Shown: positions 47,210 through 60,286 of the stretch, one piece after another
Position numbering within the stretch: the first letter of the stretch is position 1
How the letters are laid out: the number at the start of each line of letters is the position of its first letter
DNA from: Wocania ichthyoenteri Th78
Lineage (GTDB): Bacteria; Bacteroidota; Bacteroidia; Flavobacteriales; Flavobacteriaceae
Length of the DNA stretch: 64,000 nucleotides
Reading direction: 5' to 3'
Assembly: GCF_000789235.1 (NCBI RefSeq)
Contig: NZ_KN525716.1
Location: 2,834,100 to 2,898,099 of the forward strand
Program-made: the position numbers and the translations under genes
Notes under the pieces: model-generated
The model's database searches: none
Told to the model about the DNA's origin: nothing
What the model saw: only the letters and a program-made list of their open reading frames with translations

Positions 47210-48115
47210 TTAATATGATATTCTTTTAATCATTCTTCCAGATATTATTCGTACATCATTAATTGGTTTGCCATCATCATTTGTTTTTATTCCTGCAATA
47301 CTATCAACGATATTCATTCCTTTAACTACCTCTCCAAAAATGGTGTAATTTTGATCTAAGTGTGGTGCTCCTCCAATAGTTTTATAAACTTCACGATGAG
47401 CCTCGGGAAGCTCATATTTCTTTATGGTTTCAAATTCATTATTTGCTAACGAATCAATATTGTATAAGTCAATCTTACTTTTTAGAGAATTGAGTAATAA
47501 TGTATCTTTTTCGGTATAATTTTCCTTGTTTAACAGATCTAATTTTTCTTTCAAATTTACGTATTCATCTATATCCGTACTTATTGTTGGTATATTAATT
47601 ACATTATTAAACGCTATTTGTTTATTAATTTTTTCTAAAGCAATGTTTAATGTGCTGTCAACATAAGGGCCTCTTTGTACGATATAAAATTGAAATCCAC
47701 TTGATAAACGATTCCGATTGAATATATGTCCTGTTCTCGCAGCACCTAAAGCACCACGTTTGTGAAATAGATTAGGTTTAATTTCTGCTTCAATAGTATA
47801 CGATAATTCTGGATCTCCATCCCCTTTGAATACTTCGGAAGGTTTTGTTGTTGGATTTCCTCCTTGAATAACAAAATTTTCAAGTACCCGATGAAAAGCG
47901 ATACTATCATAAAATTTTTGACTTACTAGTTTGATAAAATTATTGCGATGCATTGGTGTTTCATCAGATAAGCGCATAATAATAGTGCCATAATCGGTGA
48001 TCATTTCAACATCTTTTGTGAGGTCACTTTTCATAACACCTTCTTCAATTTGTTTGTCACATCCAAAGAGAATTAATAAAAGGCATCCAAAAATAAATGT
48101 TGTTGCTAGTTTCAT
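47210..48115 (-). CDS. Cyclophilin-type peptidyl-prolyl isomerase (lipoprotein)
   Basis: The product has 301 residues with a lipobox (LLILFGC, Cys19). The cyclophilin core is split: the first half (TDYGTIIMRLSDETPMHRNNFIK, FHRVLENFVIQGGNP) ends near residue ~150. A ~80-residue insert rich in Asn/Leu/Lys follows, and then the second half (YTIFGEVVKGMNIVDSIAG). The FHRV...QGG active-site block is intact. It would assist folding at the outer membrane or in the periplasm. It is 20 bases downstream of trmL and may be read with the trp operon. Confidence 0.88.
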   Translation of the reverse strand: MKLATTFIFGCLLLILFGCDKQIEEGVMKSDLTKDVEMITDYGTIIMRLSDETPMHRNNFIKLVSQKFYDSIAFHRVLENFVIQGGNPTTKPSEVFKGDGDPELSYTIEAEIKPNLFHKRGALGAARTGHIFNRNRLSSGFQFYIVQRGPYVDSTLNIALEKINKQIAFNNVINIPTISTDIDEYVNLKEKLDLLNKENYTEKDTLLLNSLKSKIDLYNIDSLANNEFETIKKYELPEAHREVYKTIGGAPHLDQNYTIFGEVVKGMNIVDSIAGIKTNDDGKPINDVRIISGRMIKRISY

Positions 48116-48135
48116 AGTTGTAAATCTTACTAGAG

Positions 48136-48582
48136 TTAGTGTTTCAAGCCTTCATAAACTACAATACTTACTGCATTTGCTAAATTCAAACTTCTTACAT
48201 GCTTGCTATACAGAGGTATTTTATATAATTTATCAGGATGTATTTTTGTAATAGATTTTGGTAAACCAACCGATTCTTTTCCGAAAACTAAAAACATATT
48301 ATCCCCAAATGGGATATCCCAATGGTTTTGCGTGCCATGGCTTGATAAAAACACCATGTTTTCATCTTTATTTATTTCGAGGAATTGTTCGATACTATCA
48401 TAATACGTAACAGATAAATGTTGCCAATAATCTAAACCAGCACGTTTTAACCGCGAATCATCAATTTCAAAGCCAAAAGGTTTTACTAGATGTAAATTAC
48501 ATCCAGAGCCTAAAGCTAATCGGCCAATGTTTCCTGTGTTGTTAGGGATTTCGGGTTCTATTAAAACAATGTTTAAAGCCAT
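48136..48582 (-). CDS. trmL: tRNA (cytidine(34)-2'-O)-methyltransferase
   Basis: The product is a 148-residue SPOUT-fold enzyme. PEIPNNTGNIGRLALGSG (10-27), LKRAGLDYW (~45-53) and the knot region LVFGKESVGLP and RSLNLANAVSIVVYE are diagnostic. It methylates the wobble base of tRNA-Leu isoacceptors. Its ATG overlaps the trpA stop by one base, so it rides on the trp operon. Co-regulation of a tRNA modifier with tryptophan supply is curious but may be incidental. Confidence 0.92.
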   Translation of the reverse strand: MALNIVLIEPEIPNNTGNIGRLALGSGCNLHLVKPFGFEIDDSRLKRAGLDYWQHLSVTYYDSIEQFLEINKDENMVFLSSHGTQNHWDIPFGDNMFLVFGKESVGLPKSITKIHPDKLYKIPLYSKHVRSLNLANAVSIVVYEGLKH

Positions 48583-49346
48583 TAATTTAAGATTGAATCT
48601 ACAAATTTATCAATACTATTAACACCTTCATTTGTAACATGCTTTACAAAAGCACTCCCAATAATAGCGCCTTTTGCATATTGCGTAGCTTGAGTAAAAG
48701 TTTCATTATTACTTATTCCGAAACCTATAATTTGAGGGTTGCTTAAATTCATATCTGCAATGCGTTTAAAGTACTGTGTTTGCTCATCTCCAAAACCAGA
48801 TTGAGCCCCCGTGGTGCTAGCACTACTAACCATATAAATAAATCCGTTTGAAATAGAGTCAATATATCTAATACGTTCGTCACTGGTTTGAGGTGTAATT
48901 AAGAATACATTTATTAATCCGTATTTCTCAAAAATAGCTTGATATTCATCATGATACACATCAACAGGTAAGTCAGGAATAATTAAACCATCTATACCTA
49001 TTTCTTGACATTTTTTACAAAAAGCCTCAACCCCATATTGAAACATAGGATTAAAATAGCCCATTATAATTAGCGGAATACTAACAGTTCTTCTTATATC
49101 TTTTAGTTGATTAAAAAGCACCTCGGTAGTCATACCATTTTGCAAAGCTTGAGTAGAACTCGCTTGAATAGTTGGGCCATCGGCTAATGGGTCGCTAAAT
49201 GGTAAGCCTATTTCTATCATATCGACCCCGTTTTTTTCTAAATCTTGAATGATTGAAACGGTATTGTTGATGTTTGGATAACCTGCCGTAAAGTATATGG
49301 ATAGTAATTTTTTGTTTTCTTGTAATTTTTGATTTATTCTATTCAT
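48582..49346 (-). CDS. trpA: Tryptophan synthase alpha chain
   Basis: The product is a 254-residue TIM barrel. Catalytic Glu45 (MIEIGLPFSDP) and Asp56 (PLADGPTIQ) are in place, and the phosphate site GFGISNNET is near the C terminus. It cleaves indole-3-glycerol phosphate to indole, channelled to TrpB. A 414-bp repeat-filled gap separates it from trpB, the longest in the operon. Confidence 0.96.
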   Translation of the reverse strand: MNRINQKLQENKKLLSIYFTAGYPNINNTVSIIQDLEKNGVDMIEIGLPFSDPLADGPTIQASSTQALQNGMTTEVLFNQLKDIRRTVSIPLIIMGYFNPMFQYGVEAFCKKCQEIGIDGLIIPDLPVDVYHDEYQAIFEKYGLINVFLITPQTSDERIRYIDSISNGFIYMVSSASTTGAQSGFGDEQTQYFKRIADMNLSNPQIIGFGISNNETFTQATQYAKGAIIGSAFVKHVTNEGVNSIDKFVDSILN

Positions 49347-49350
49347 TTTT

Positions 49351-49375
49351 GTTATTCCTGCGAAGGCAGGAATCT
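49351..49375. repeat. REP-like hairpin upstream of trpA
   Basis: ATTCCTGCGAAGGCAGGAAT: perfect stem ATTCCTGC/GCAGGAAT with loop GAAG, 4 bases from the trpA start codon. It mirrors the hairpin before kmo. Confidence 0.7.
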
Positions 49376-49404
49376 GTTTTTAGTTAATCTTTTTTTATTT
49401 CTTT

Positions 49405-49599
49405 CTGTTCATTTTGTCTTGATACAAAACGAACCAAAAAATCAAGTCCAAGCCGAGGAATTTTTCATCCCGATTTTGTAGGGATGAAAACCGATTTGAA
49501 AACTCCGCGTCGAACTTTGTTCTCCTGTTCTCGGAGCTTTTCTTCATCTATTCTGCACCTTGGCTTTCAATTATGCGAATTGATTTAGGACTTTTCTTT
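49405..49599. repeat. Structured repeat family A, copy 2 (195 bp)
   Basis: Bases 49405-49465 are identical to 28469-28529. At the next position there is a hairpin CATCCC/GGGATG where copy 1 has AAGTTT/AAACTT. The remaining ~106 bases match with about a dozen differences. The gap 49347-49760 also holds a REP-like hairpin on one side and a family B copy on the other; no gene is seen in it. Confidence 0.85.
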
Positions 49600-49675
49600 T
49601 GTTATTTTATTTTCTAATCTCAAATTTATAGCTTTCTTAATTCTTAATTCTTAATTTTAAACTAGTTCTGGTTTT

Positions 49676-49754
49676 GCGTTAGGGATTGATGCGGTATCCT
49701 TTTGCTTTTTTGCAAAAAAAACATAGCAGAAAGCCCGACCCTTGTGGTAACGCC
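49676..49754 (-). repeat. Repeat family B, copy 2
   Basis: Read on the minus strand it begins GGCGTTACCACAAGGGTC and ends TCAATCCCTAACGC. The centre has the near-palindrome TTTTGCAAAAAAGCAAAAGG. It is the best-preserved copy, and ends 6 bases from the trpB stop. Confidence 0.75.
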
Positions 49755-49760
49755 ATAATT

Positions 49761-50942
49761 CTAAATCTTAAAATAATCAATGTAATTCTCTAAATCTTTA
49801 TCGCCACGCCCAGATAAACTTACTACAATAACATCGTTTGGTTTAAAGGTTTTCTGCTCGAAAATAGCTAAAGCGTGCGAACTTTCAATAGCCGGAATGA
49901 TGCCTTCTAATTTGCATAATTCTAAGCCTGCTTTCATTGCATCATCATCTGTAATGGCCATGAATTCTGCACGCTCTGTTTTGCACAAATGCGCATGCAT
50001 GGGGCCAACACCCGGATAATCTAATCCTGCCGAAATGGAATACGGTTCGGTAATTTGTCCGTCGTTAGTTTGCATTAAAAGTGTTTTGCAACCGTGGATA
50101 ATACCTTCTTTCCCTAAAACAGATGTTGCTGCGCTTTCGCCAGAATCTACACCTAAACCAGCGGCTTCAACTGCTATTATTTTTACATCTTTTTCATGTA
50201 AATAATGATAATAGGTACCAGCTGCATTACTGCCACCGCCAATACAGGCTACTACATAATCTGGATTTTCTCTGCCTTCGTGCTCTTTAAGTTGCCATTT
50301 AATTTCTTCCGAAATCACAGCTTGAAAACGTGTTACCATATCTGGATAGGGATGCGGGCCAATAGCTGAACCGATAATGTAATGTGTGTTTACGGGGTTG
50401 TTAATCCAATCTCGAATAGCTTCGTTGGTGGCGTCTTTTAGGGTGCGACTTCCAGACAGCGCAGGAACTACTTTAGCTCCGAGCATTTTCATTCTGGCCA
50501 CGTTTGGCGCTTGTCGTGCAATATCAATTTCGCCCATATAAACAATGCATTCAAGTCCCATTAATGCGCAAACGGTAGCAGTTGCAACACCGTGTTGTCC
50601 TGCGCCAGTTTCGGCAATAATTCTGGTTTTGCCCAAACGTTTTGCCATAAGGATTTGCCCAATGGTATTGTTTATTTTATGTGCACCAGTATGATTTAAA
50701 TCTTCGCGTTTTAAATATATTTTGGTGTTATATTTTTCTGAAAGGCGTTTTGCAAAATAGAGTGGCGAAGGGCGACCTACATAATCTTTTAGAAGTTGGT
50801 TAAACTCCTTTTGAAAACTGGGTTCTGCCATAACCTTCAAATAGTTTTGGCGTAACTCTTCTACATTTGGATATAGCATTTCGGGGATGAATGCGCCTCC
50901 AAATTCGCCGTAATAGCCTTTTTCGTTTACGTTGTAATTCAT
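49761..50942 (-). CDS. trpB: Tryptophan synthase beta chain
   Basis: The product has 393 residues. The PLP lysine is Lys89 in [11 protein letters not shown]. The phosphate-binding GGGSNAAG, and [10 protein letters not shown], are intact. It joins indole and serine to tryptophan. The start codon is preceded by a REP-like pair (50949-51027) that also covers the end of trpF. Confidence 0.97.
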
Positions 50943-50948
50943 AATTTA

Positions 50949-51027
50949 TGTCATTCCCTCGAAGGAGGGAATCTGTTTAATTATTGTTTCTATTTATAAT
51001 GGATTCTGCATCAAGTGCGGAATGACA
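50949..51027. repeat. Inverted REP-like pair overlapping the trpF stop (79 bp)
   Basis: The left hairpin TGTCATTCCCTCGAAGGAGG and the right element GGATTCTGCATCAAGTGCGG share TGTCATTCC/GGAATGACA ends. The right half lies over the trpF stop, so it codes for the last residues LSFRT of TrpF. Confidence 0.75.
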
Positions 51028-51661
51028 AATGTTTTTTAAATTCTTTTAAATCTTCAATATTTTTTAATCCAGGTTCTATTTCAAATTTACTATTCACGTC
51101 TAAAGCGTAACAATATTTTGAAGCTTTACTTTGTTGAAATTTTTTAATGTATTCAATTTGCTTTAACCCAATACCTCCACTTAAAAAGAAAGGTTTAGTT
51201 GATGGGTAATCGTTTAAAACATTCCAATCAAATGTATAGCCGTTGCCCCCTGGTAATTTTCCTTTGGTATCGAATAAAAAATAATCGCAAACATTTTCAT
51301 ACGGTTTTAATGATTCGAAATTGAATTCGTCTTTGATTGAAAATACTTTGATTATTTCGATTTGATGTGATGCTGAAACGAGTTCAGCATGACGTAATGC
51401 ATTACAATATTCTGGTGATTCACTACCGTGTAATTGAACTGCCTGTAAATTATGGGTGTTTATTTTTTCTAATACGAAATCTAATTCTGCATCAACAAAA
51501 ACACCTGTTTTTTTTATTGATTTTGGTAATTTTGGAATATGGTTTGCATTAAAATTCCTTGCAGATTTTTCATAAAAAATAAATCCAAGATAATCGGGTT
51601 GCAATGCTGCAACTTGTTCAATGTTTTCTTGATATTTCATTCCGCAAACCTTTAATTTCAT
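51011..51661 (-). CDS. trpF: Phosphoribosylanthranilate isomerase, with repeat-derived insert
   Basis: The product has 216 residues. Catalytic Cys6 (KVCGM) and Asp131 (LFDTKG) are present, and so is the phosphate-binding SGGI. It converts phosphoribosylanthranilate to CdRP. Residues ~90-99 (RHAELVSASH) come from a REP-like element inserted in frame between QLHGSESPEYC and IIKVFS. The C-terminal LSFRT comes from a second element at 51001-51027. The enzyme looks otherwise complete. It overlaps trpC by 4 bases. Confidence 0.93.
   Translation of the reverse strand: MKLKVCGMKYQENIEQVAALQPDYLGFIFYEKSARNFNANHIPKLPKSIKKTGVFVDAELDFVLEKINTHNLQAVQLHGSESPEYCNALRHAELVSASHQIEIIKVFSIKDEFNFESLKPYENVCDYFLFDTKGKLPGGNGYTFDWNVLNDYPSTKPFFLSGGIGLKQIEYIKKFQQSKASKYCYALDVNSKFEIEPGLKNIEDLKEFKKHLSFRT
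51368..51394. repeat. REP-like hairpin inside trpF
   Basis: GATGCTGAAACGAGTTCAGCA then TGACG: stem TGCTGAA/TTCAGCA with loop ACGAG, within the trpF coding frame. A decayed relative with a similar TACTGAAACAAGTTCAGCA core is at 62045-62068. Confidence 0.8.
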
Positions 51662-52443
51662 TTTTTTAAGGTTTTAATAAACTTGGTTGCACTTGCTCCT
51701 GGATTATCTGTTTTCATAAAGTTTTCACCTATTAAAAATCCTTGGTAGCCATAAAGCTGTAATTCTTTGATAGATTCAATATTGCTAATGCCACTTTCAG
51801 ATACTTTTACAAAATCATCTGGAATAAGTTTGCTTAATGTTTTGCTAGTTTCTAAGCTAACATCAAAGGTTTTTAAGTTTCTATTGTTAACACCTAACAT
51901 GTCTAAACTTGGCATGATAGATTTATGCAATTCTTCTACGTTATGTACTTCTAAAAGTACATCGAGATTTAGGCTTTTTGCAAATTCAGAGAACTTCTTG
52001 ATTTCGTTTTTTGATAGAATTGCTGCAATTAAAAGAATAACATCTGCTCCATAAGCTTTAGCTTCTAATAATTGATATTCATCAATAATGAATTCTTTTC
52101 TTAATAAAGGTAGGTTGCAACTTGCGCGAGCCGTGAGTAAGTCATCTAAAGAGCCACCAAAATATTTGCCATCTGTTAAAACAGACATACCGCAAACACC
52201 AGCATTTTCATATCCTTTAGCTACGTCTTGAACATTTAATGTGTTATTAATAACAGATTTTGAAGGTGAGCGTCGTTTGTGTTCTGCAATAATTCCTGAG
52301 CTACTTTGTCGTAATTTTTCAGCAAGTGAAATATTTTTTCTTTCAAATAAAACAGATTGTTCTAATTGAGAAATAGGAATTAAGCCTTTTCGTAAATTAA
52401 CTTCTACGCGTTTGTCAATAACAATTTTATCTAGAATATTCAT
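51658..52443 (-). CDS. trpC: Indole-3-glycerol phosphate synthase
   Basis: The product is a 261-residue TIM barrel. IIAEHKRRSPSKSVI (outline, catalytic Lys in EHKRRSPS), LLRKEFIIDEYQ (Lys of strand 3), the LEVHN pair, NNRNLKTF and SESGI are all in order. It closes CdRP to indole glycerol phosphate. It overlaps trpD by 4 bases and trpF by 4 bases. Confidence 0.96.
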   Translation of the reverse strand: MNILDKIVIDKRVEVNLRKGLIPISQLEQSVLFERKNISLAEKLRQSSSGIIAEHKRRSPSKSVINNTLNVQDVAKGYENAGVCGMSVLTDGKYFGGSLDDLLTARASCNLPLLRKEFIIDEYQLLEAKAYGADVILLIAAILSKNEIKKFSEFAKSLNLDVLLEVHNVEELHKSIMPSLDMLGVNNRNLKTFDVSLETSKTLSKLIPDDFVKVSESGISNIESIKELQLYGYQGFLIGENFMKTDNPGASATKFIKTLKK

Positions 52444-53432
52444 TTACTCAATTCAATTAATGTGTCTAAACTCTTTTTTGCTTTACCTGAAAGCAATGAT
52501 TTTTTAGCCAATTCAAAGCCTTCTTTATGGCTAATTTGTTTTGTAGTAGCAATTGCTAAACCGGCATTGGCACAAACAACATGGTTTTGTGGTTCGGTTC
52601 CTTTTCCGCTAATGACATTTAAAAATATTTTTGCGGCATCATCAACGGTGTTACCTCCAAAAATAGATTCTTGCTTTATTTGTGAAATACCTAAATCCTC
52701 AGGTGAAAACATGATTTCAGAATGATTTGAAATCACTTTTGTTTTTCCTGTAAGAGATATTTCATCATAGCCATCTAACGCATGTACAATACTATAATTT
52801 TTATCGGTTTGTTGGTATAAATAACCATACAAACGTTGTAATTCTAGATTAAAAACACCAACCATTTGATTTTTAGGAAACGATGGATTTACCATGGGAC
52901 CTAGCATATTAAAAAATGTTTTTACACCTAATTCTCGACGGATTGGTGCTACGTTTTTCATAGCAGGATGAAATAAAGGCGCGTGTAAAACACAAATACC
53001 TGCTTTATCTATAGTACGTTTTAAAAAATCTTCGTTGTTTGAAAATTTAATTCCTAAATGTTCCATAACGTTTGACGAGCCGCAAGCAGAAGACACGCCA
53101 TAATTACCATGTTTAGCAACTTTTATGCCTGCCCCAGCAGATACAAAAGAGGATAGTGTAGATATGTTAAAAGTATCTTTTCCGTCGCCACCAGTTCCAC
53201 ATAAATCAATAGCATTGAAGTCTTTTAAATCGATGGGGACGCATAATTCTAAAAGGGCATCTCTAAAACCTTGAAGTTCTTCAAGTGTTATACTTCGCAT
53301 CATAAAAACGGTTAGAAATGAAGCAATTTGACTTTGATTATACATGCCGTTTGAGATGTTAACCAATACTTGTTTTGCTTCTTCGCTAGAGATGTTTTCG
53401 TGATTTATTAATCTGTTAAGTAATTGTTTCAT
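52440..53432 (-). CDS. trpD: Anthranilate phosphoribosyltransferase
   Basis: The product has 330 residues. DLCGTGGDGKDTFNIST (~77-93, PRPP site), KHGNYGVSSACGSSNVMEHLG, and the anthranilate-binding region HPAMKNVAPIRRELGVKTFFN (outline) are typical. It transfers the phosphoribosyl group to anthranilate. Start 3 bases after trpG. Confidence 0.96.
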   Translation of the reverse strand: MKQLLNRLINHENISSEEAKQVLVNISNGMYNQSQIASFLTVFMMRSITLEELQGFRDALLELCVPIDLKDFNAIDLCGTGGDGKDTFNISTLSSFVSAGAGIKVAKHGNYGVSSACGSSNVMEHLGIKFSNNEDFLKRTIDKAGICVLHAPLFHPAMKNVAPIRRELGVKTFFNMLGPMVNPSFPKNQMVGVFNLELQRLYGYLYQQTDKNYSIVHALDGYDEISLTGKTKVISNHSEIMFSPEDLGISQIKQESIFGGNTVDDAAKIFLNVISGKGTEPQNHVVCANAGLAIATTKQISHKEGFELAKKSLLSGKAKKSLDTLIELSK

Positions 53433-53435
53433 AGC

Positions 53436-54002
53436 CTAAGAATTGATCCAATTTTCAAGAATTTGTTTTCCATTTGGAGTTAGTACAGATTCTGGATGAT
53501 ATTGCACGCCTTTTACATCATATTCTCTATGCCGTAAAGACATGACTTGTCCGTTTTCATCAAAAGAAGTGGCTTCTAAGCAATCTGGTAAATTTGAATT
53601 AACTACCCATGAGTGGTAACGCCCTACTTTGATGTTTTTTTCTAAACCTTTAAATAATAGTTCATCATCAACGGTAATATTTACTTTAGTGGCAACACCA
53701 TGATAAACTTCATCTAAATTAATGAGTGAACCACCGAAAACTTCACCAATGGCTTGTTGCCCTAAGCAAACACCTAAAATGCTTTTTGTTGGCGCATATT
53801 TTTTTATAATTGCTTTTAGTAAACCTGCTTCGTCAGGAATACCAGGGCCTGGAGATAGTACAACTTTGCTGAAAGATTCAACGTCTTCTAATAGTAATTT
53901 ATCGTTTCTAACAACGGTAACATCGCAGTTTAAATCTTCTAAATAATGTACAAGATTGTAAGTAAAACTATCGTAATTATCTATAACTAATACTTTCGTC
54001 AT
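53436..54002 (-). CDS. trpG: Anthranilate synthase glutamine amidotransferase component
   Basis: The product is a 188-residue class I amidotransferase. The triad is Cys79 (GVCLGQQAI), His169 and Glu171 (YHPESVLT). SPGPGIP is at 50-56. It supplies ammonia to TrpE; the same type can also serve aminodeoxychorismate synthase. It starts 2 bases after trpE. Confidence 0.95.
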   Translation of the reverse strand: MTKVLVIDNYDSFTYNLVHYLEDLNCDVTVVRNDKLLLEDVESFSKVVLSPGPGIPDEAGLLKAIIKKYAPTKSILGVCLGQQAIGEVFGGSLINLDEVYHGVATKVNITVDDELLFKGLEKNIKVGRYHSWVVNSNLPDCLEATSFDENGQVMSLRHREYDVKGVQYHPESVLTPNGKQILENWINS

Positions 54003-54004
54003 CT

Positions 54005-55402
54005 TTAAATATCTTCAGCTAATTTAATAGCTTTTGTTAATGCTCCTAATTTATTATATACTTCTTGTAGCTCGTTTTCTGGATTAGATTTAGATACTAA
54101 TCCTGCGCCCGCTTGCCAATGTAGTTTATGATTTTTACTTAAAAAAGTTCGAATCATTATAGCGTGATTAAAGTTGCCTTCAAAATCCATAAACCCAATG
54201 GCACCACCATAAAAAGCACGACTTGTTTTTTCGTATTGTTCTATAAGTTGCATAGCGCGATGCTTTGGCGCACCACTTAAAGTACCGGCAGGAAAAGTGT
54301 CTGCAACTACTTGCATGGTTGAAGTTTTTTTATGTTTTTGTCCTGTAACTTTGCTTACCAAATGGATGACATGCGAAAAAAACTGAACCTCTCTATAAGT
54401 GTCTACTGTTACATTGTTCCCGTTTCGACTTAAATCATTTCTTGCTAAATCTACCAGCATTACGTGTTCTGCATTTTCTTTATCGTCTACCGCTAATTGT
54501 TTTGCTAATTCGGCATCTTTTAAATCATTTCCAGTACGTTTAAATGTACCTGCGATTGGGTGAATCTCTGCTTTTCCTTCGCTAACTATAAGTTGTGCTT
54601 CTGGCGAGCTTCCAAATATTTTAAAATTACCATAATCAAAATAGAATAAGTAAGGTGATGGATTTATACTTCGTAAAGCTCTGTATACATTAAACTCATC
54701 TCCTTTAAATTCTTGAGCAAAGTTTTTTGATAACACTAATTGAAATACATCACCTCGCGCACAATGTTTCTTTGCTAACTCAACATGGTTTTTATATTCA
54801 TCGTCTGTTAAGTTTGATGTTATTTCTCCACTAGATTCAAAATTATAAGACGCAAAATTTCTGGCTTTTATTAAATGATCTATTTCATCAATGTTGCTTT
54901 CCGTATTAAAACAATGTGCAAAAATATAAGCTTCATTTTTAAAATGATTTATAGCAATGATATTTTGATACACAGCATAATAAACATCAGGAATGTTAAT
55001 TGAGTTCTCTTTTTTTGAAATCTCAACATCTTCAAAATATCTAACAGCATCATAAGCTATGTAACCAAAAATCCCATTGTTAATAAATTTGAATTTTTCA
55101 GAAGTATCAGCTTTAAATCGTTTTGTAAATTGATGAATTTCTTCTGATACCTTAATAGTTTTGTTTATGTTTTTTGATGCCGAACTACCATCAGGAAATG
55201 TTTGAGAAATAACTTCATTTTCAACCTTAATTGACGCTATGGGGTTAAAACAGATGTATGAAAAACTATTGTCGTTAGCATGATAATCACTGCTTTCTAA
55301 TAGAATACTGTTAGGATATTTATCCCTAATTTTAAGATAAATGCTTACAGGGGTAATCGTATCTGCAAGAATTTTTTTGTAATGTGTTGTTAGTTGATAC
55401 AT
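54005..55402 (-). CDS. trpE: Anthranilate synthase component I
   Basis: The product has 465 residues. The N-terminal LLESS (34-38) is the tryptophan-binding feedback site, so the enzyme is probably allosterically inhibited as well as attenuated. The chorismate domain shows GDVFQLVLSKNF, FGSSPEAQL, HPIAGTFKR, LVDLARNDLSR, FPAGTLSGAPK and GGAIGFMDF. It makes anthranilate from chorismate. Its ATG is 9 bases past the leader terminator. Confidence 0.96.
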   Translation of the reverse strand: MYQLTTHYKKILADTITPVSIYLKIRDKYPNSILLESSDYHANDNSFSYICFNPIASIKVENEVISQTFPDGSSASKNINKTIKVSEEIHQFTKRFKADTSEKFKFINNGIFGYIAYDAVRYFEDVEISKKENSINIPDVYYAVYQNIIAINHFKNEAYIFAHCFNTESNIDEIDHLIKARNFASYNFESSGEITSNLTDDEYKNHVELAKKHCARGDVFQLVLSKNFAQEFKGDEFNVYRALRSINPSPYLFYFDYGNFKIFGSSPEAQLIVSEGKAEIHPIAGTFKRTGNDLKDAELAKQLAVDDKENAEHVMLVDLARNDLSRNGNNVTVDTYREVQFFSHVIHLVSKVTGQKHKKTSTMQVVADTFPAGTLSGAPKHRAMQLIEQYEKTSRAFYGGAIGFMDFEGNFNHAIMIRTFLSKNHKLHWQAGAGLVSKSNPENELQEVYNKLGALTKAIKLAEDI

Positions 55403-55411
55403 GTTTTTATA

Positions 55412-55446
55412 TTAAAAAAGGCTTGTCGTGAATGACAAGCCTTTTT
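55412..55446 (-). terminator. trp leader terminator (attenuator)
   Basis: Stem AAAAAGGCTTGTC/GACAAGCCTTTTT (13 bp, loop 6), with a run of T on the minus strand just before trpE. It lies 36 bases downstream of the leader-peptide stop. The leader segment AGCTTTT right after the Trp codons can pair with AAAAGGCT of the stem (one bulge), which could be an antiterminator. The terminator is seen; the pairing scheme is inferred. Confidence 0.85.
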
Positions 55447-55481
55447 GATATTTTAAGTTTTAAATATACTAGGTTTTTACT

Positions 55482-55538
55482 TCACGAACGTAAGTTTGAA
55501 AAGCTCCACCACCAAGTATTATTTAAAATTGTATTCAT
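55482..55538 (-). CDS. trpL: trp operon leader peptide, three tandem Trp codons
   Basis: A short frame from ATG 55538 to TGA 55482 codes for MNTILNNTWWWSFSNLRS. The three consecutive TGG codons at 55506-55514 lie 36 bases or more before the attenuator stem. This is the layout of ribosome-mediated attenuation: when charged tRNA-Trp is scarce the ribosome stalls at WWW and the terminator cannot form. The gene overlaps no reading frame of a real product, because the thioredoxin-like gene starts downstream of it on the other strand at 55667. Confidence 0.9.
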   Translation of the reverse strand: MNTILNNTWWWSFSNLRS

Positions 55539-55606
55539 TTATTTTGTTTTTAACTTGGTCAAATATAGAAATGAAAAAAGTATTACACAAAACTTTAGTT
55601 CATTTT

Positions 55607-55638
55607 TTGCATAAAAGTTTGTTAAACTATAATATTTG
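55607..55638 (+). promoter_or_regulatory. Promoter for TlpA-like gene
   Basis: TTG at 55607-55609, a 21-base spacer and AATATTTG at 55631-55638 (one mismatch to TAnnTTTG). It is 29 bases ahead of ATG 55667, in the trp leader's divergent spacer. Confidence 0.5.
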
Positions 55639-55666
55639 CAAGAAACTATTAATTAATTTTATAGGT

Positions 55667-56212
55667 ATGAAATTTAATGTAATATTTATTGCAATACTAA
55701 TAATATTTAGTTGCGCCAATAAAAGTAAGAAAACTGAAATTGTTATTAAAACTAGTAAAGAGGAAGTTGTTAGTAATAATAATGTTGAAAATTTTGATTT
55801 AGAAATTTACGATTATTCAGGTTTTGAAAAATTTTTAAATAAAAAAGACGACAAAGTTTATGTTATTAATTTTTGGGCAACTTGGTGTGCACCTTGTGTA
55901 AAAGAGTTGCCACATTTTGAAAAATTAAATGAGTATTATAAAAACAAAAATGTAGAAGTTATATTGGTAAGTTTAGATTTTCCGCATTTGTACGAAAAAA
56001 AATTAAAACCATTTATAAAAGAGAAGCAATTAAAATCTAAAGTGATTGCTTTAGATGATGCCGATATGAATTCTTGGATACCTAAAGTAGATAAAAGTTG
56101 GTCTGGGTCAATACCAGCAACAATAGTTTATAAAAATAATAAACGCAAATTTTTTGAGCAATCGTTTACTTATGAAGAACTAGAAAAGGAAATAACCCCA
56201 TTTTTAAAATAA
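55667..56212 (+). CDS. TlpA-like thioredoxin-fold lipoprotein
   Basis: The frame is open from 55496, but the ATG at 55667 yields a lipoprotein signal (FIAILIIFSC) and a 181-residue protein. The active site is FWATWCAPCVKE, of the W-C-x-P-C type used for thiol-disulfide exchange in the periplasm. SGSIPATIVYK carries the conserved cis-Pro. It is followed 6 bases later by the redoxin gene, so they probably act together on protein or peroxide thiols. Confidence 0.9.
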   Translation: MKFNVIFIAILIIFSCANKSKKTEIVIKTSKEEVVSNNNVENFDLEIYDYSGFEKFLNKKDDKVYVINFWATWCAPCVKELPHFEKLNEYYKNKNVEVILVSLDFPHLYEKKLKPFIKEKQLKSKVIALDDADMNSWIPKVDKSWSGSIPATIVYKNNKRKFFEQSFTYEELEKEITPFLK

Positions 56213-56218
56213 AAACAT

Positions 56219-56839
56219 ATGAAAAAAACAATTAAATTAATTTCAGCATTAGTAATTGTGCTAAGCGTAAGTGCTTTTACAATTGCCAGTACAAATATTG
56301 ATGAGGGCTATAAAATTGGTGATGTGGCTGAAGATTTTTCGCTAAAAAACATCGATGGAAAGATGGTGTCATTAGCAAATTATAAAGACGCAAAAGGCTT
56401 TATCGTCATATTTACTTGTAATACTTGTCCTTATGCTGTTATGTACGAAGACAGAATTATAGCCTTAAACAATAAATATGCTAGTAAAGGTTACCCAGTA
56501 ATTGCTATTATGCCAAATAATACAGTTAAAAAACCAGGTGATAATTTTGATGCCATGAAACAACGTGCAAAAGAGAAAGGATTTACTTTTCCATACTTAA
56601 TTGATGAAGCACAAAGTGTTTACCCAAAATTTGGAGCCACTAAAACACCTCATGTATTTATTTTACAAAAAGGAGATGGTTTAAACATAGTTGAATATAT
56701 TGGAGCCATTGATGATAACTACAAAGATGCTTCGGCAGTAAACACTAAGTATGTTGAAGATGCTGTAGATGCAATGCTAAATGGCGAAGAGGTTTCGCCA
56801 ACCGAAACCAAAGCTATTGGTTGCTCTATTAAAGCTTAA
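56219..56839 (+). CDS. Redoxin/peroxiredoxin-like secreted protein
   Basis: The product has 206 residues with a signal peptide (1-24). The AhpC/TSA-type domain includes VAEDFSLKNIDGKMV and a reactive stretch FTCNTCPYAVMYEDRI with a C-x-x-C pair; cis-Pro lies in TKTPHVF. The pair sits where thioredoxins, rather than peroxiredoxins, have theirs, so a thiol reductase role is as likely as peroxidase. Probably operonic with the TlpA-like gene. Confidence 0.85.
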   Translation: MKKTIKLISALVIVLSVSAFTIASTNIDEGYKIGDVAEDFSLKNIDGKMVSLANYKDAKGFIVIFTCNTCPYAVMYEDRIIALNNKYASKGYPVIAIMPNNTVKKPGDNFDAMKQRAKEKGFTFPYLIDEAQSVYPKFGATKTPHVFILQKGDGLNIVEYIGAIDDNYKDASAVNTKYVEDAVDAMLNGEEVSPTETKAIGCSIKA

Positions 56840-56854
56840 AAAAAATGAAATTGA

Positions 56855-56876
56855 TATTTTCGCTTTCGCGGAAATC
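56855..56876. repeat. REP-like hairpin
   Basis: TTTTCGCTTTCGCGGAAATC, a CGC/GCG-stem variant of the TTCC-type hairpin family on the minus strand, in the gap before the rhodanese gene. Confidence 0.5.
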
Positions 56877-56944
56877 TAAAAGAATATTAAAATTCGAAGT
56901 TTTTATACTTCGGATTTTTTTAGCCTTTATTTAAACAGATGTAT

Positions 56945-56952
56945 TAAATTTG
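56945..56952 (+). promoter_or_regulatory. -7 promoter box for rhodanese genes
   Basis: TAAATTTG is an exact TAnnTTTG box 36 bases before ATG 56989. A possible TTG start codon at 56950 lies inside this box, which argues against using it. Confidence 0.55.
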
Positions 56953-56988
56953 CAATACCAAAAAAGGATTAATTTCAAATTAAAAAAA

Positions 56989-57306
56989 ATGGAACATTTA
57001 AGTCAAGAAGAATGGGTGTCGCAATTAGAAAGTGATGATAATGCGGTTATTATTGATGTAAGAACAGTTGATGAGGTAGCCGATGGAATTATTGCTAATG
57101 CCATCCATATAGATATTTACAAAGGACAAGAATTTATTAATGAAGTAGAAGCACTTGACAAAGATAAAAACTATTATGTGTACTGTAGATCAGGTAACAG
57201 AAGCGGACAAGCTTGTGGTATTATGAATCAACTAGGTTTTGAAAATGCTTATAATCTTGAAGGAGGTATTTTAGAATGGGAAGGCGATCTTGTAGATTTA
57301 GATTAA
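56989..57306 (+). CDS. Cytoplasmic rhodanese-like protein
   Basis: The product has 105 residues. The true start is ATG 56989 (MEHLSQEEWVSQLESDDNAV in outline). The catalytic loop is YCRSGNRSGQAC, with the active cysteine intact, so it can move sulfane sulfur. It begins the two-gene unit whose second member is a lipid-anchored rhodanese 9 bases downstream. Confidence 0.9.
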   Translation: MEHLSQEEWVSQLESDDNAVIIDVRTVDEVADGIIANAIHIDIYKGQEFINEVEALDKDKNYYVYCRSGNRSGQACGIMNQLGFENAYNLEGGILEWEGDLVDLD

Positions 57307-57315
57307 AATAATTAA

Positions 57316-57717
57316 ATGAAACAGTTATTTATTTTAGTAGCATTTTTAGTTGTAACAACAATTATTGTTAGTTGTAATAAAAAATTAAAAAGCGATGCTA
57401 AAGTTGTATCGGCAGAAGATATTCAAACCCTTTTGCAAATAGATAATGTACAATTAATTGATGTTAGAACACCAAAAGAATTTAAAGAAGGATATATAGC
57501 CAACGCTCAAAATATAGATTTTTTATCATCTAATTTTGCAGAAAATATTAAAAAATTAGACAAAAATAAACCTTTAATTGTGTACTGCCGATCAGGGAAA
57601 AGAAGCACAAAAAGCATTAAAAAATTACTTGAGGCTGGTTTTACCGAAATATACAATTTAGAAGGCGGAATAATTAAATGGAAACACAAAGGATTTAAAG
57701 TAAATAGAAACCTTTAA
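57316..57717 (+). CDS. Rhodanese-like lipoprotein
   Basis: The product has 133 residues with a lipobox (TTIIVSC, Cys20). The single rhodanese domain holds the active loop YCRSGKRSTKS. Two rhodaneses, one cytoplasmic and one periplasmic, encoded in tandem suggest sulfur handling on both sides of the membrane, as an inference. Confidence 0.88.
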   Translation: MKQLFILVAFLVVTTIIVSCNKKLKSDAKVVSAEDIQTLLQIDNVQLIDVRTPKEFKEGYIANAQNIDFLSSNFAENIKKLDKNKPLIVYCRSGKRSTKSIKKLLEAGFTEIYNLEGGIIKWKHKGFKVNRNL

Positions 57718-57744
57718 AAGCTCTCAATTTTGAGGGCTTTTTTT
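57716..57744 (+). terminator. Terminator after the rhodanese pair
   Basis: Stem AAAAGCTCTCA/TGAGGGCTTTT with a 4-base loop and a following T-run; it overlaps the stop of the lipoprotein gene by two bases. Confidence 0.8.
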
Positions 57745-57912
57745 ATAAAGCTTTTTCATAACCAAATATTTAGTATATTTGGTTAACTCCAAATTGTGAG
57801 CCTTCATCTTAAATGATATATTTCATTTATTATAAAGTAAAACTCTCCTAAATCATTTTTAATAGTACACTATATAATAGTTATATAGTTAACCAACCAA
57901 ATAATTTTGATT

Positions 57913-58683
57913 ATGATTAAAAAAACAATTTCAGTAATGGCTGTTATTGCTATGGTTTTTAGTGCCACAGTAACAGTAAACGCCCAAGAAGACAAATCTT
58001 ATACTATGTGGGAAAACATTTTGTTAACTCCAGATAATACTAAATTAAAAGTATTATCAGAAAATATGAGAAAGCATAATGCTGAATACCATAAAAAAGC
58101 TCCTCATACAGCAACCGTTTATAATATAGTTTCTGGACCCAATTCAGGTAAAATTATATGGCAAATGGGGCCTATGCATTATAAACATAATGATACACGA
58201 CCAGGCGAAGGAGGACACGACGAAGATTGGAGAGATAACGTTATGCCATACATAAAAAAAATAAATACCATAGAGTATTGGACGCAAGACGATAAATTGT
58301 CTAATACCAGCATGTTAAAAGGAGAAAGTATTAAGTATCCGCTTTTATTTGTGAGAGTTGGTGAGATTGAAAAGGATCAAGTCTCATCCGTAAATCAATT
58401 TTATAAATATGTAAGTGAAACTATTAAAGCTATGGAAGGTGTTAATCCTTGGGGTTTGTATTTCAATGAATTTAGACAGGGTAATTTAGGACGTCATGTG
58501 GCTTCGGTAGGTTTTTATAAAAATTGGACAGCATTTGACGAAGAAGAAAATAATTTTAAGAAAACTTTTGAAAAAGTACACGGAGAAGAAAATTGGCAAA
58601 TGTTTATAGATATGGCTAATAGAACTTTCTCAAATTCTTGGGATGAAATATGGTCATATAATAAACATATGAGCGGTCATTAA
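57913..58683 (+). CDS. Hypothetical secreted protein
   Basis: The product has 256 residues from ATG 57913, with a signal peptide ending VNAQ. The mature part is rich in Trp, His and Asn (YTMWENILLTPDNTKLK, IIWQMGPMHYKHND, WQMFIDMANRTFSNSWDEIW in outline). It looks like two related halves, each with a ferredoxin-like stress-response (antibiotic biosynthesis monooxygenase-like) pattern, but I do not recognise the family. It stands alone between two terminators. Confidence 0.72.
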   Translation: MIKKTISVMAVIAMVFSATVTVNAQEDKSYTMWENILLTPDNTKLKVLSENMRKHNAEYHKKAPHTATVYNIVSGPNSGKIIWQMGPMHYKHNDTRPGEGGHDEDWRDNVMPYIKKINTIEYWTQDDKLSNTSMLKGESIKYPLLFVRVGEIEKDQVSSVNQFYKYVSETIKAMEGVNPWGLYFNEFRQGNLGRHVASVGFYKNWTAFDEEENNFKKTFEKVHGEENWQMFIDMANRTFSNSWDEIWSYNKHMSGH

Positions 58684-58720
58684 TATAAATTTATAAGAAG
58701 GCTATAATCTACTTTAAAAA

Positions 58721-58760
58721 AAAACCTTTGATGCTTTTACGCATTTCAAAGGTTTTTTTT
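58721..58760 (+). terminator. Terminator
   Basis: AAAACCTTTGATGC and GCATTTCAAAGGTTTTTTTT form a long, slightly bulged stem, 37 bases after the hypothetical gene's stop. Confidence 0.75.
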
Positions 58761-58890
58761 GCTTAATAATTCTTTCAACTACTTTTTGAGTACTTTAGCT
58801 TTTTTATTTTTAAGCATAGTTCTTTTTTTATATTTTTATTCAAAATAAGCTGAATATTAGCATTTAATAAACAACCTAAGAGAACAAGTT

Positions 58891-59202
58891 ATGGAAAACG
58901 GCTTTGTAATATTATCAATAATAGCATTATTGTTTTTAAGTATATATGGATATACTTATGGTTCTGTTGCTTTAGCAAAAATTAAGCAAAAGAAAGCTGA
59001 AAAGAAAGAAATGATGCTTGAAGAAATTAAGCTTGAAGAAAGAAAAAGAAAGCAAGCCTTAAGAGATGAAAAGTTAAGAAAGCAAAATAAAAGACGCGAA
59101 GAAATTAAGCATGAACTTAAATTGCTTGAAGAAATTAAGCTTAATAATGATAAGTTGAATAAACTTCGAGTTGAAAAAATGAAGCAGAAAAAAGTAAGTT
59201 AA
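58891..59202 (+). CDS. Single-pass membrane protein with charged coiled coil
   Basis: The product has 103 residues. One membrane helix (~5-30, ILSIIALLFLSIYGYTYGS) is followed by a ~70-residue Lys/Glu/Arg-rich helix with a repeated LEEIKL word, visible in DNA as three copies of GAAGAAATTAAGC. No family recognised. It resembles small ATP synthase-b- or YkyA-like anchored rods only in general shape. Confidence 0.7.
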   Translation: MENGFVILSIIALLFLSIYGYTYGSVALAKIKQKKAEKKEMMLEEIKLEERKRKQALRDEKLRKQNKRREEIKHELKLLEEIKLNNDKLNKLRVEKMKQKKVS

Positions 59203-59222
59203 AATTCTACTATAAAGTTGAA

Positions 59223-59258
59223 AACGCGATGTTTTAATTTAAACATCGCGTTTTTTTA
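59223..59258 (+). terminator. Terminator
   Basis: Perfect stem AACGCGATGTTT/AAACATCGCGTT (loop 6) with a T-run, just after the coiled-coil gene and before the IS element. Confidence 0.85.
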
Positions 59259-59275
59259 TTTTGATTCTATCTATA

Positions 59276-60286
59276 AACCTGAGTTCGATTAATATTTAGG
59301 CATTTTTTATTAGTGAAAAAGATAGATTTTCAGTAAATTAAAGTTCTGATTTTCAATTTATTAATCTAAAAATCTATCTATGATAATCTACTCTAAAATT
59401 ACTGAAATTTTCTGTCTTGTTGATGAATTTTGTAAAGAATATGACCAAATAGTCGATAAACATCTTTTGGGAAATCCTCCAAAACGTCCATCTGTTATGT
59501 CAAATAGCGAGGTGATCACTATTACCATTTTGTTTCAGCTCAGTGGTTTTAGAACCTTTAAGCACTTCTACATTTATTACCTGCAAAAGCATATGCGAGA
59601 TGATTTTCCAGCTACAGTTTCATACAATAGATTTACAGAACTCATGCAGCAAAATCTCATGCCAATGACTTTGTTTTTAAAGACGTGCTGTTTAGGCGAT
59701 TCTACTGGTATTTCTTTTGTGGATTCTACGCCTGTTAGAGTTTGTAAACCTAAACGAATCAAGAACAACAAAGTATTCAAAGGCATTGCAACTACCGGGA
59801 AATCCACTATGGGATGGTTCCATGGCTTTAAATTGCACATCGTTATAAATGATAAAGGCGAGATTCTAAACTTTACAATAACCCAAGCTAATGTTGATGA
59901 TAGAACGCCACTAAAAAAGAAGTCTTTTTTAGATAAAATTTATGGTAAATTATACGCAGACAAAGGTTATGTCGGAAAAGATTTAATGCAATTGCTTTTT
60001 GCCGATGGATTGCATTTAATTACGCATATCAAAAACAATATGAAAAATTATTTAATGACAATGAGTGATAAAATTTTACTCAGAAAACGTTCTGTTATTG
60101 AAACGGTAAATGATGAACTCAAAAATATTTGTCAAATTGAACACTCTAGACATAGAAGCTTTACTAATTTCTTATCAAATATAGTTGCAGGCCTTATCGC
60201 ATATAGCTTTTTGCCTAAGAAACCTTCTATAAAATATCAGACTGTAAAGTCTAATCAGTTGACTCTTTATTAATCGAACTCAGGTT
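59276..60286 (+). mobile_element. Intact IS982-family insertion sequence (1011 bp)
   Basis: Perfect 19-bp terminal inverted repeats, AACCTGAGTTCGATTAATA at 59276-59294 and its complement at 60268-60286, flank a full transposase gene. The bases ATA directly outside both ends may be a 3-bp target duplication. The right repeat contains the transposase stop codon. The element seems complete and possibly active. Confidence 0.88.
59380..60273 (+). CDS. IS982-family transposase
   Basis: The product has 297 residues, the usual length. DDE residues are readable: Asp in [11 protein letters not shown] (~114), Asp in LYADKGYVG (~194) and Glu in [18 protein letters not shown] (~246). [18 protein letters not shown] at the N terminus is family-typical. 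No internal stop or frameshift. Confidence 0.93.

Follow-up and report, generated by a model that had tools for sequence, protein, structure and literature searches.

A Bacteroid-trp leader RNA that very probably attenuates the tryptophan operon of Wocania ichthyoenteri, with a candidate antiterminator suggested by comparison with relatives

The RNA leader that precedes trpE in Wocania ichthyoenteri Th78 is very probably a switch that turns the trp genes off when tryptophan is plentiful, and comparison with related leaders points to the part of the RNA that would act as the on-switch. The element is a further member of Bacteroid-trp (Rfam RF01692), a catalogued family published in 2010, and is ordinary in kind. 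As a whole, sequence comparison and folding models make us confident that it functions as a ribosome-mediated transcription attenuator of the trp operon in which the switch would be a pairing of UCGUGAA, at the end of the leader peptide frame, with UUCACGA, at the top of the terminator. All positions given below are those of the window, the entire stretch of 64,000 nucleotides that was analysed.

Results

The leader and terminator upstream of trpE

Read from the sequence, the minus strand of 55402-55600 carries in order TTTG, TATATTTG, the leader frame, a spacer, a hairpin followed by a T-run and the trpE start (Table 1). An earlier reading of this DNA from its letters alone (the sequence-only reading) had described an 18-codon frame with three consecutive Trp codons and a perfect 13-bp stem with a T-run just ahead of trpE, and direct reading of the minus strand confirmed both. 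The terminator is composed of the stem AAAAAGGCTTGTC (55446-55434), the loop ATTCAC (55433-55428) and the arm GACAAGCCTTTTT (55427-55415). It was the one terminator-like site found by a terminator scan of 54800-56200 (shuffle mean 0.2), which reports it on the plus strand because the stem is near-palindromic. The terminator letters are present at a single place in the organism's own genome, and a common terminator reused across that genome was thereby rejected.

The sequence-only reading had called the element unannotated, which is wrong insofar as RF01692 describes it: the match runs over the full length of the model, its score exceeds the gathering score, and it lies upstream of tryptophan biosynthesis genes (trpE being the first) in a Bacteroidete, as do the known members. 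Throughout the genome this was the only RF01692 match over the cut-off; four others (22.8-26.7 bits, E 1.5-7.9), considered as further leader copies, were taken as chance. The T-box model was absent among the ten Rfam matches obtained up to E 5 in 48000-60000. Weinberg et al. 2010 (PMC2864571) list Bacteroid-trp in their Table 1 as an RNA from Bacteroidetes with a probable cis-regulatory role. It is given as conserved upstream of the Flavobacterium psychrophilum trp operon in PMC6414381, and is also named in PMC4977773. In the covered parts of this literature it figures only as a candidate cis-regulatory RNA or is compared with the Escherichia coli leader. No description of a Bacteroid-trp antiterminator was found in the covered parts of sources that included PMC2864571, PMC6414381, PMC4833913, PMC2965389, PMC7298713, PMC9723704, PMC7366714 and PMC7160235, and one may be drawn in the additional files of PMC2864571.

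Table 1 Features of the trp leader region (window positions)
Feature	Position	Strand	Details and basis
TTTG, candidate -33 element (weak)	55588..55591	-	sequence
TATATTTG, candidate -7 element	55560..55567	-	predicted transcription start near 55555
RF01692 Bacteroid-trp match	55434..55558	-	69.2 bits, gathering score 49; model positions 1-131 of 131
Leader peptide ORF MNTILNNTWWWSFSNLRS, stop included	55482..55538	-	18 codons; ATG 55538-55536, stop TGA 55484-55482; sequence
Long ribosome-free helix, 5' strand (predicted)	55511..55528	-	pairs with 55458-55474; window fold
Three tandem Trp codons (TGGTGGTGG; TGG x3)	55506..55514	-	sequence and relatives
GCUUU, predicted partner of GAAGU 55483-55479	55500..55504	-	ribosome-free fold of window
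UCGUGAA, candidate antiterminator strand, overlaps leader stop codon	55481..55487	-	relatives, duplexes, alignment, fold
AAACCU, leader side of predicted inner antiterminator helix, with AGGCUU 55442-55437	55471..55476	-	fold with ribosome on Trp codons
Long ribosome-free helix, 3' strand (predicted)	55458..55474	-	window fold and alignment
Predicted apical hairpin of antiterminator (AUAUUU/AAAUAU)	55448..55467	-	fold with ribosome on Trp codons; alifold
Intrinsic terminator hairpin, perfect 13 bp, then T-run to 55414	55415..55446	-	sequence, terminator scan, relatives
UUCACGA, candidate partner in terminator loop and top of 3' arm	55426..55432	-	relatives, duplexes, alignment, fold
trpE, anthranilate synthase component I	54005..55402	-	ATG at 55402; first gene of trpE-G-D-C-F-B-A (48582-55402)

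Trp codons and terminator are conserved

At E <= 0.001 RF01692 matched 208 of the 299 genomes of the window's family (f1), 184 of these over the cut-off, and 42 of 395 genomes (38 over the cut-off) in a phylum-wide sample. The counts for the other families were 62/118 (54 over the cut-off) in f12, 35/121 (22) in f11, 21/100 (14) in f2 and 12/101 (4) in f3. A TrpE match was present at every one of the 130 loci initially retrieved with the RNA model. A parsing script, in which an ATG frame containing TGGTGG or TGGTGT and a terminator were mandatory, accepted 125 of them, with WWW in 124 and WWCC in one; the remaining five, read by eye, also have WWW and this terminator and begin with GTG or TTG. 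As these loci had been selected by the RNA model, two controls matter, namely loci chosen through TrpE and genomes in which the model finds nothing. At loci chosen by TrpE similarity alone a Trp-codon leader and terminator were parsed in 78 of 80 cases, and the two others (L134 and L186) have their upstream sequence cut by a contig end. The sequence-only reading had staked itself on conservation of the Trp codons and terminator in close relatives, and this is what the TrpE-chosen loci gave. With L134, L186 and L234 left out, 234 of the 237 loci with a TrpE match were parsed, and 231 of these have WWW.

For the second control the first 20 listed of 91 RF01692-negative genomes of the family were probed. 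TrpE was obtained from 14, of which one (L332) was cut upstream. Twelve of the 13 genomes with upstream sequence (L331 and L333-L343) have a trp leader and terminator where RF01692 gave no match, with WW in six and WWW in six; L344 has no such leader and terminator. Thus, the Rfam model undercounts.

For alignment the 216 distinct leaders were reduced to 155 representatives below 90% identity and, upon removal of L211 and L216 (from other families), to 153, of which 43 came from the TrpE search and 110 from Rfam-model searches. In these 153 relatives the terminator stem is paired in 1863 of 1924 cells (96.8%) with two-sided changes in seven of the 13 pairs, and its letters are conserved beyond what a hairpin requires.

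A candidate antiterminator overlaps the leader stop codon

In the window UCGUGAA and UUCACGA are complementary over seven pairs. In a MAFFT alignment of the 153 representatives the six core pairs are intact in 906 of 918 cells, and an eight-pair helix is kept in 1048 of 1215 cells (86.3%), versus 18.3-48.0% when the partner is slid by one or two columns. UCGUGA is present in 145 of the 153 representatives, where it starts 17-19 nt after the Trp codons, and in the family UCACGA sits in the terminator loop and the top of the 3' arm. As the motif is nearly invariant, most of its pairs give no covariation; two-sided changes occur in eight cells of four pairs of the eight-pair helix, and of the six core pairs two show such change, both in L101. 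Part of the constancy of UCGUGA is selection, because most representatives were found with an Rfam model that contains it. In the RF01692 consensus the Trp codons and the motif are shown within a helix, and the consensus stops inside the terminator 5' arm; it includes neither the loop nor the 3' arm and is without both the whole terminator and the antiterminator proposed here. The UGA of UCGUGA is the leader stop codon in 89 leaders, with the stop located downstream in 39 and upstream in 17. Given this varying position of the stop, the motif is not kept for coding.

Duplex energies were computed for each leader with its own terminator. In f1 the value was -10.5 kcal/mol (n = 197) versus -5.2 kcal/mol for shuffled leaders, and f1 leaders paired with terminators of other families gave -5.5 to -7.9 kcal/mol. 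Own pairs of f2 averaged -10.2 kcal/mol versus -6.2 to -8.7 kcal/mol with terminators of other families. For f3 leaders the duplexes are stronger with f12 terminators (-9.8) than with f3 terminators (-8.0), and duplex energy does not separate f11 from f12. Upon 100 shuffles each, p <= 0.05 was found for 193 of 283 distinct leader-terminator pairs (f1 160/197, f2 11/19, f11 14/27, f12 6/28 and f3 2/12, the last two weak); L252, L298 and L234 were left out of the parsed cross-family leaders. The comparison supports the Trp codons, the terminator, the UCGUGAA/UUCACGA pairing and the spacing of that pairing from the Trp codons.

Diverged leaders carry rewritten letters

In L101 the two strands are UUGUCGCAAU and AUUGCGACAA, which form ten pairs. 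The usual f12 form is UCGUAAG with CUURCGR (L285, L286 and L290 deviate), f2 has GUUGGUUC with GAACCGAC in L312 and GUUGAUUC with GAAUCGAC in L319, and f3 has GUGGCAA with UUGCCAU in L299 and L302. Among the RF01692-negative leaders, L341, whose terminator is quite different, combines GGAUUCAG with CUGAAUCC, L339 has UCGCGA with UCGCGA, L338 GCGAUGA with UCAUCGC, and L342 GCGAG with CUCGC. In all 12 RF01692-negative leaders the start of the best pairing with the terminator top lies 16-22 nt downstream of the Trp codons. When each was compared with 300 shuffles, p <= 0.05 was obtained for seven (L331, L334, L335, L339, L340, L341 and L342) and values of 0.053-0.093, above 0.05, for L333, L336, L337, L338 and L343. 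The pairing is interrupted or shortened in L116, L141, L178, L194 and L336, and is kept in a shifted register in L208.

These comparisons make it probable that RF01692 is part of a wider Bacteroidota attenuator in which the working rule is conserved and its letters change: a strand that starts 16-22 nt downstream of the Trp codons and lies around the leader stop would pair with the terminator loop, leaders too diverged for the Rfam model (e.g., L341) would obey, and some lineages would use leaderless translation. By eye, four f2 loci (L321, L323, L324 and L328) have in the leader a AAAGUCUU identical to part of the terminator 3' arm; it could perhaps pair with the 5' arm AAGACUUU, which would be a different style of antiterminator.

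Folding with and without a ribosome

The folding set consisted of the 140 of 153 representatives that have both motifs. In the folding a ribosome was taken to cover 15 nt past the first base of the P-site codon. With the first Trp codon occupying the A site the motif starts 13-15 nt beyond the ribosome edge, and when the ribosome is at the stop codon the motif is fully covered in 143 of 145 leaders. For RNA extending to the top of the terminator 3' arm, the probability of the core pairs was 0.96-0.97 with the ribosome on any Trp codon (n = 140); the value of 0 at the stop codon arises because the assumed footprint covers the strand, rather than from folding. In the window the antiterminator rarely forms without a ribosome (0.003). 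From the folds we infer a switch between mutually exclusive structures.

Hiding of the motif in ribosome-free RNA is uneven across the family (mean probability of the core pairs 0.32, median 0.09). With shuffled flanks, a test done on the first 80 representatives (75 with both motifs), the ribosome-free value was 0.31 for the own flanks versus 0.46 for the shuffled and was lower for the own in 51 of 75. In local ribosome-free folds the motif was unpaired at 0.19 versus 0.42 in shuffles, lower in 136 of 145. In the ribosome-free window fold the leader forms a long helix (Table 1), the core of which is paired in 887 of 1307 cells (67.9%) in the 153 relatives. RNAalifold did not recover this long helix and gave for the ribosome-free leader only a four-pair hairpin (z -2.7). 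In the same window fold GCUUU pairs with GAAGU and hence would help to hide UCGUGAA.

With the ribosome on the Trp codons, pairing of the spacer with GGCUU of the terminator 5' arm was 0.72 versus 0.52 in shuffles and was higher in 118 of the 134 representatives used, those also having GGCUUGUC. Alifold analysis of the antiterminator state gave z -4.6 (140 of 153 sequences, all with UCGUGA and UCACGA). The outer helix is there invariant by selection because the input required both motifs, and thus only the inner and apical pairs are informative; two-sided changes are seen in the apical hairpin. With the whole terminator in the fold, the antiterminator was never preferred at equilibrium in any state (mean probability <= 0.03) and therefore would have to act kinetically, by forming first. 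The full window fold also paired ACCAAGU of the 5' end with ACUUGGU at the first Trp codon. By eye this pairing is absent in L044, of the same genus, and interrupted by a bulge in L072, and was therefore taken as chance.

Promoter and leaderless leaders

In 149 of 152 representatives the 60 nt ahead of the leader start contain a TAnnTTTG box, versus seven of 152 after one shuffle each. The text of PMC9723704 places this box at -12 to -5, and transcription is therefore predicted to begin near 55555, upstream of the leader frame rather than downstream of 55538, giving the window's leader a 5' end of 17 nt. The evidence for the candidate -33 element is weak, since PMC7366714 reports a TTTG near -33 from Bacteroides fragilis and none from Flavobacterium johnsoniae. 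The gap between box and start codon is 4-6 nt in 30 of the 149 f1 leaders with the box and in 14 of 20 f2 leaders, which are predicted to be leaderless or nearly so. No such gap was found among the 26 f11 and 28 f12 leaders with the box, and only one of 12 f3 leaders has the box. At the f2 loci (L311-L330) the 14 leaders start 5-6 nt behind it. Leaderless mRNAs are put at 5.5% in F. psychrophilum (PMC9723704).

Discussion

The window has a short leader ORF with tandem Trp codons and an intrinsic terminator before the first gene of the operon, the layout of a ribosome-mediated trp attenuator, and comparison and folding point to the third component, a mutually exclusive antiterminator that a ribosome on the Trp codons would free. 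Ribosome-mediated trp attenuation, as put forward in the sequence-only reading, is thus well supported by conservation, the Rfam match and the folding model. We propose that RNA polymerase starts near 55555 and transcribes the leader. Given enough Trp-tRNA, the ribosome would reach the stop codon and cover UCGUGAA, the terminator would fold, and transcription would stop before trpE. With too little Trp-tRNA the ribosome would pause on the Trp codons and break the long helix, making UCGUGAA available to UUCACGA as the terminator emerges; the spacer would meanwhile pair with the terminator 5' arm. The terminator would thereby be delayed, polymerase would pass, and the operon would be expressed. 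In RNA without a ribosome the long helix would hide UCGUGAA and the terminator would win.

The sequence-only reading had guessed at another antiterminator for such an attenuator, AGCUUUU (55505-55499) pairing with AAAAGGCU in the terminator 5' arm. The two strands are indeed complementary in the window with one bulged G, but only 555 of 1055 cells (52.6%) are paired in the 153 relatives, on which count we rejected the pairing. Moreover, AGCUUUU directly follows the Trp codons and would be overlapped in part by a ribosome whose A site holds the first Trp codon, and completely by one that has reached the second or third, and in the window fold this strand pairs elsewhere (GCUUU with GAAGU). We consider such an antiterminator highly improbable and UCGUGAA/UUCACGA the better candidate. 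If the latter pairing were real and instead joined the terminator loop to upstream RNA so as to stabilise the terminator, it would promote termination. In principle the lower terminator stem could persist alongside it, and the terminator does always win at equilibrium. However, the sign would be wrong, since the strand is free with the ribosome on the Trp codons and covered at the end of the leader, and the spacer pairing with GGCUU of the 5' arm, which exceeds that of shuffles, competes with the terminator. This role for the pairing is very unlikely.

It is unlikely that, besides the cis control, the terminated leader RNA or the peptide acts in trans in the manner of Sinorhizobium meliloti trpL. 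The terminator stem letters kept beyond hairpin need, their occurrence at one place in the genome and the predicted leaderless or nearly leaderless leaders of f1 and f2 would fit such a role, but the constancy of the stem is explained partly by the antiterminator pairing and partly by selection with the Rfam model, and a 5' end of 17 nt is predicted for the leader in the window. That the locus is non-regulatory, an ordinary intergenic terminator beside a chance Trp-rich frame, has the shortness of the frame as its sole point in favour and carries negligible probability: Trp codons and terminator recur jointly at the TrpE-chosen loci, and this conservation already contradicts it. Moreover, the neighbouring gene is transcribed divergently, and hence there is no known transcript from upstream that would have to be terminated there in the direction of trpE.

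The trpL attenuator of E. coli has two tandem Trp codons in a short leader ORF, exclusive structures and a terminator before trpE. The window resembles it in having tandem Trp codons, predicted mutually exclusive structures and a terminator ahead of trpE, and differs in having three Trp codons rather than two and in that the antiterminator strand, located at the stop codon, would pair with the terminator loop and the top of the 3' arm, and an inner helix would engage the 5' arm. S. meliloti trpL (rnTrpL) is described in PMC7298713 as leaderless, as functioning in attenuation upstream of trpE(G), and as acting in trans. It too is a short attenuation leader and is leaderless as predicted for some relatives here; in contrast, the window's own leader is predicted not to be leaderless and is not known to act in trans. 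Strong clues for leader-peptide attenuation at amino-acid operons are presented for F. psychrophilum (PMC9723704). Those attenuators are in related bacteria, and the covered text of PMC9723704 and PMC6414381 gives no antiterminator or switching model.

The element itself was to be expected from the published family. What the comparison contributes is a definite candidate for the antiterminator and evidence against the AGCUUUU pairing, and its possible value lies in a specific switching model for RF01692 and in the indication that diverged leaders escape the Rfam model. As Flavobacteria are described as having no Shine-Dalgarno sequences (PMC9723704), the leader could also serve to probe how closely the leading ribosome follows RNA polymerase.

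The trp operon and its neighbours

The functions of trpE, trpG and trpF were named by their best equivalog models, below the cut-offs of those models; trpG is over the cut-off of the trpG/papA subfamily model, and trpD, trpC, trpB and trpA are over the cut-offs of their own models. The nearest named TrpE is that of Flavivirga rizhaonensis (90% identity), which places the window in the Flavobacteriaceae. The divergent gene, which the sequence-only reading had called TlpA-like, does resemble ResA/TlpA-type thiol-disulfide oxidoreductases, with scores below the model cut-offs. The 414-base gap between trpA and trpB contains a Flavo-1-like RNA match at 49671-49744 (plus strand; 35.5 bits, below the gathering score of 42), Flavo-1 being a widespread Flavobacteriaceae motif the role of which is called unclear in PMC9723704. 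A transposase gene of the IS982 family, over the NCBIfam cut-off, is located at 59380-60273 on the plus strand. TrpF carries RHAELVSASH, a peptide known from a palindromic repeat in Bacteroidetes genomes, apparently as an in-frame insertion (51366-51391, minus strand; single copy in the window).
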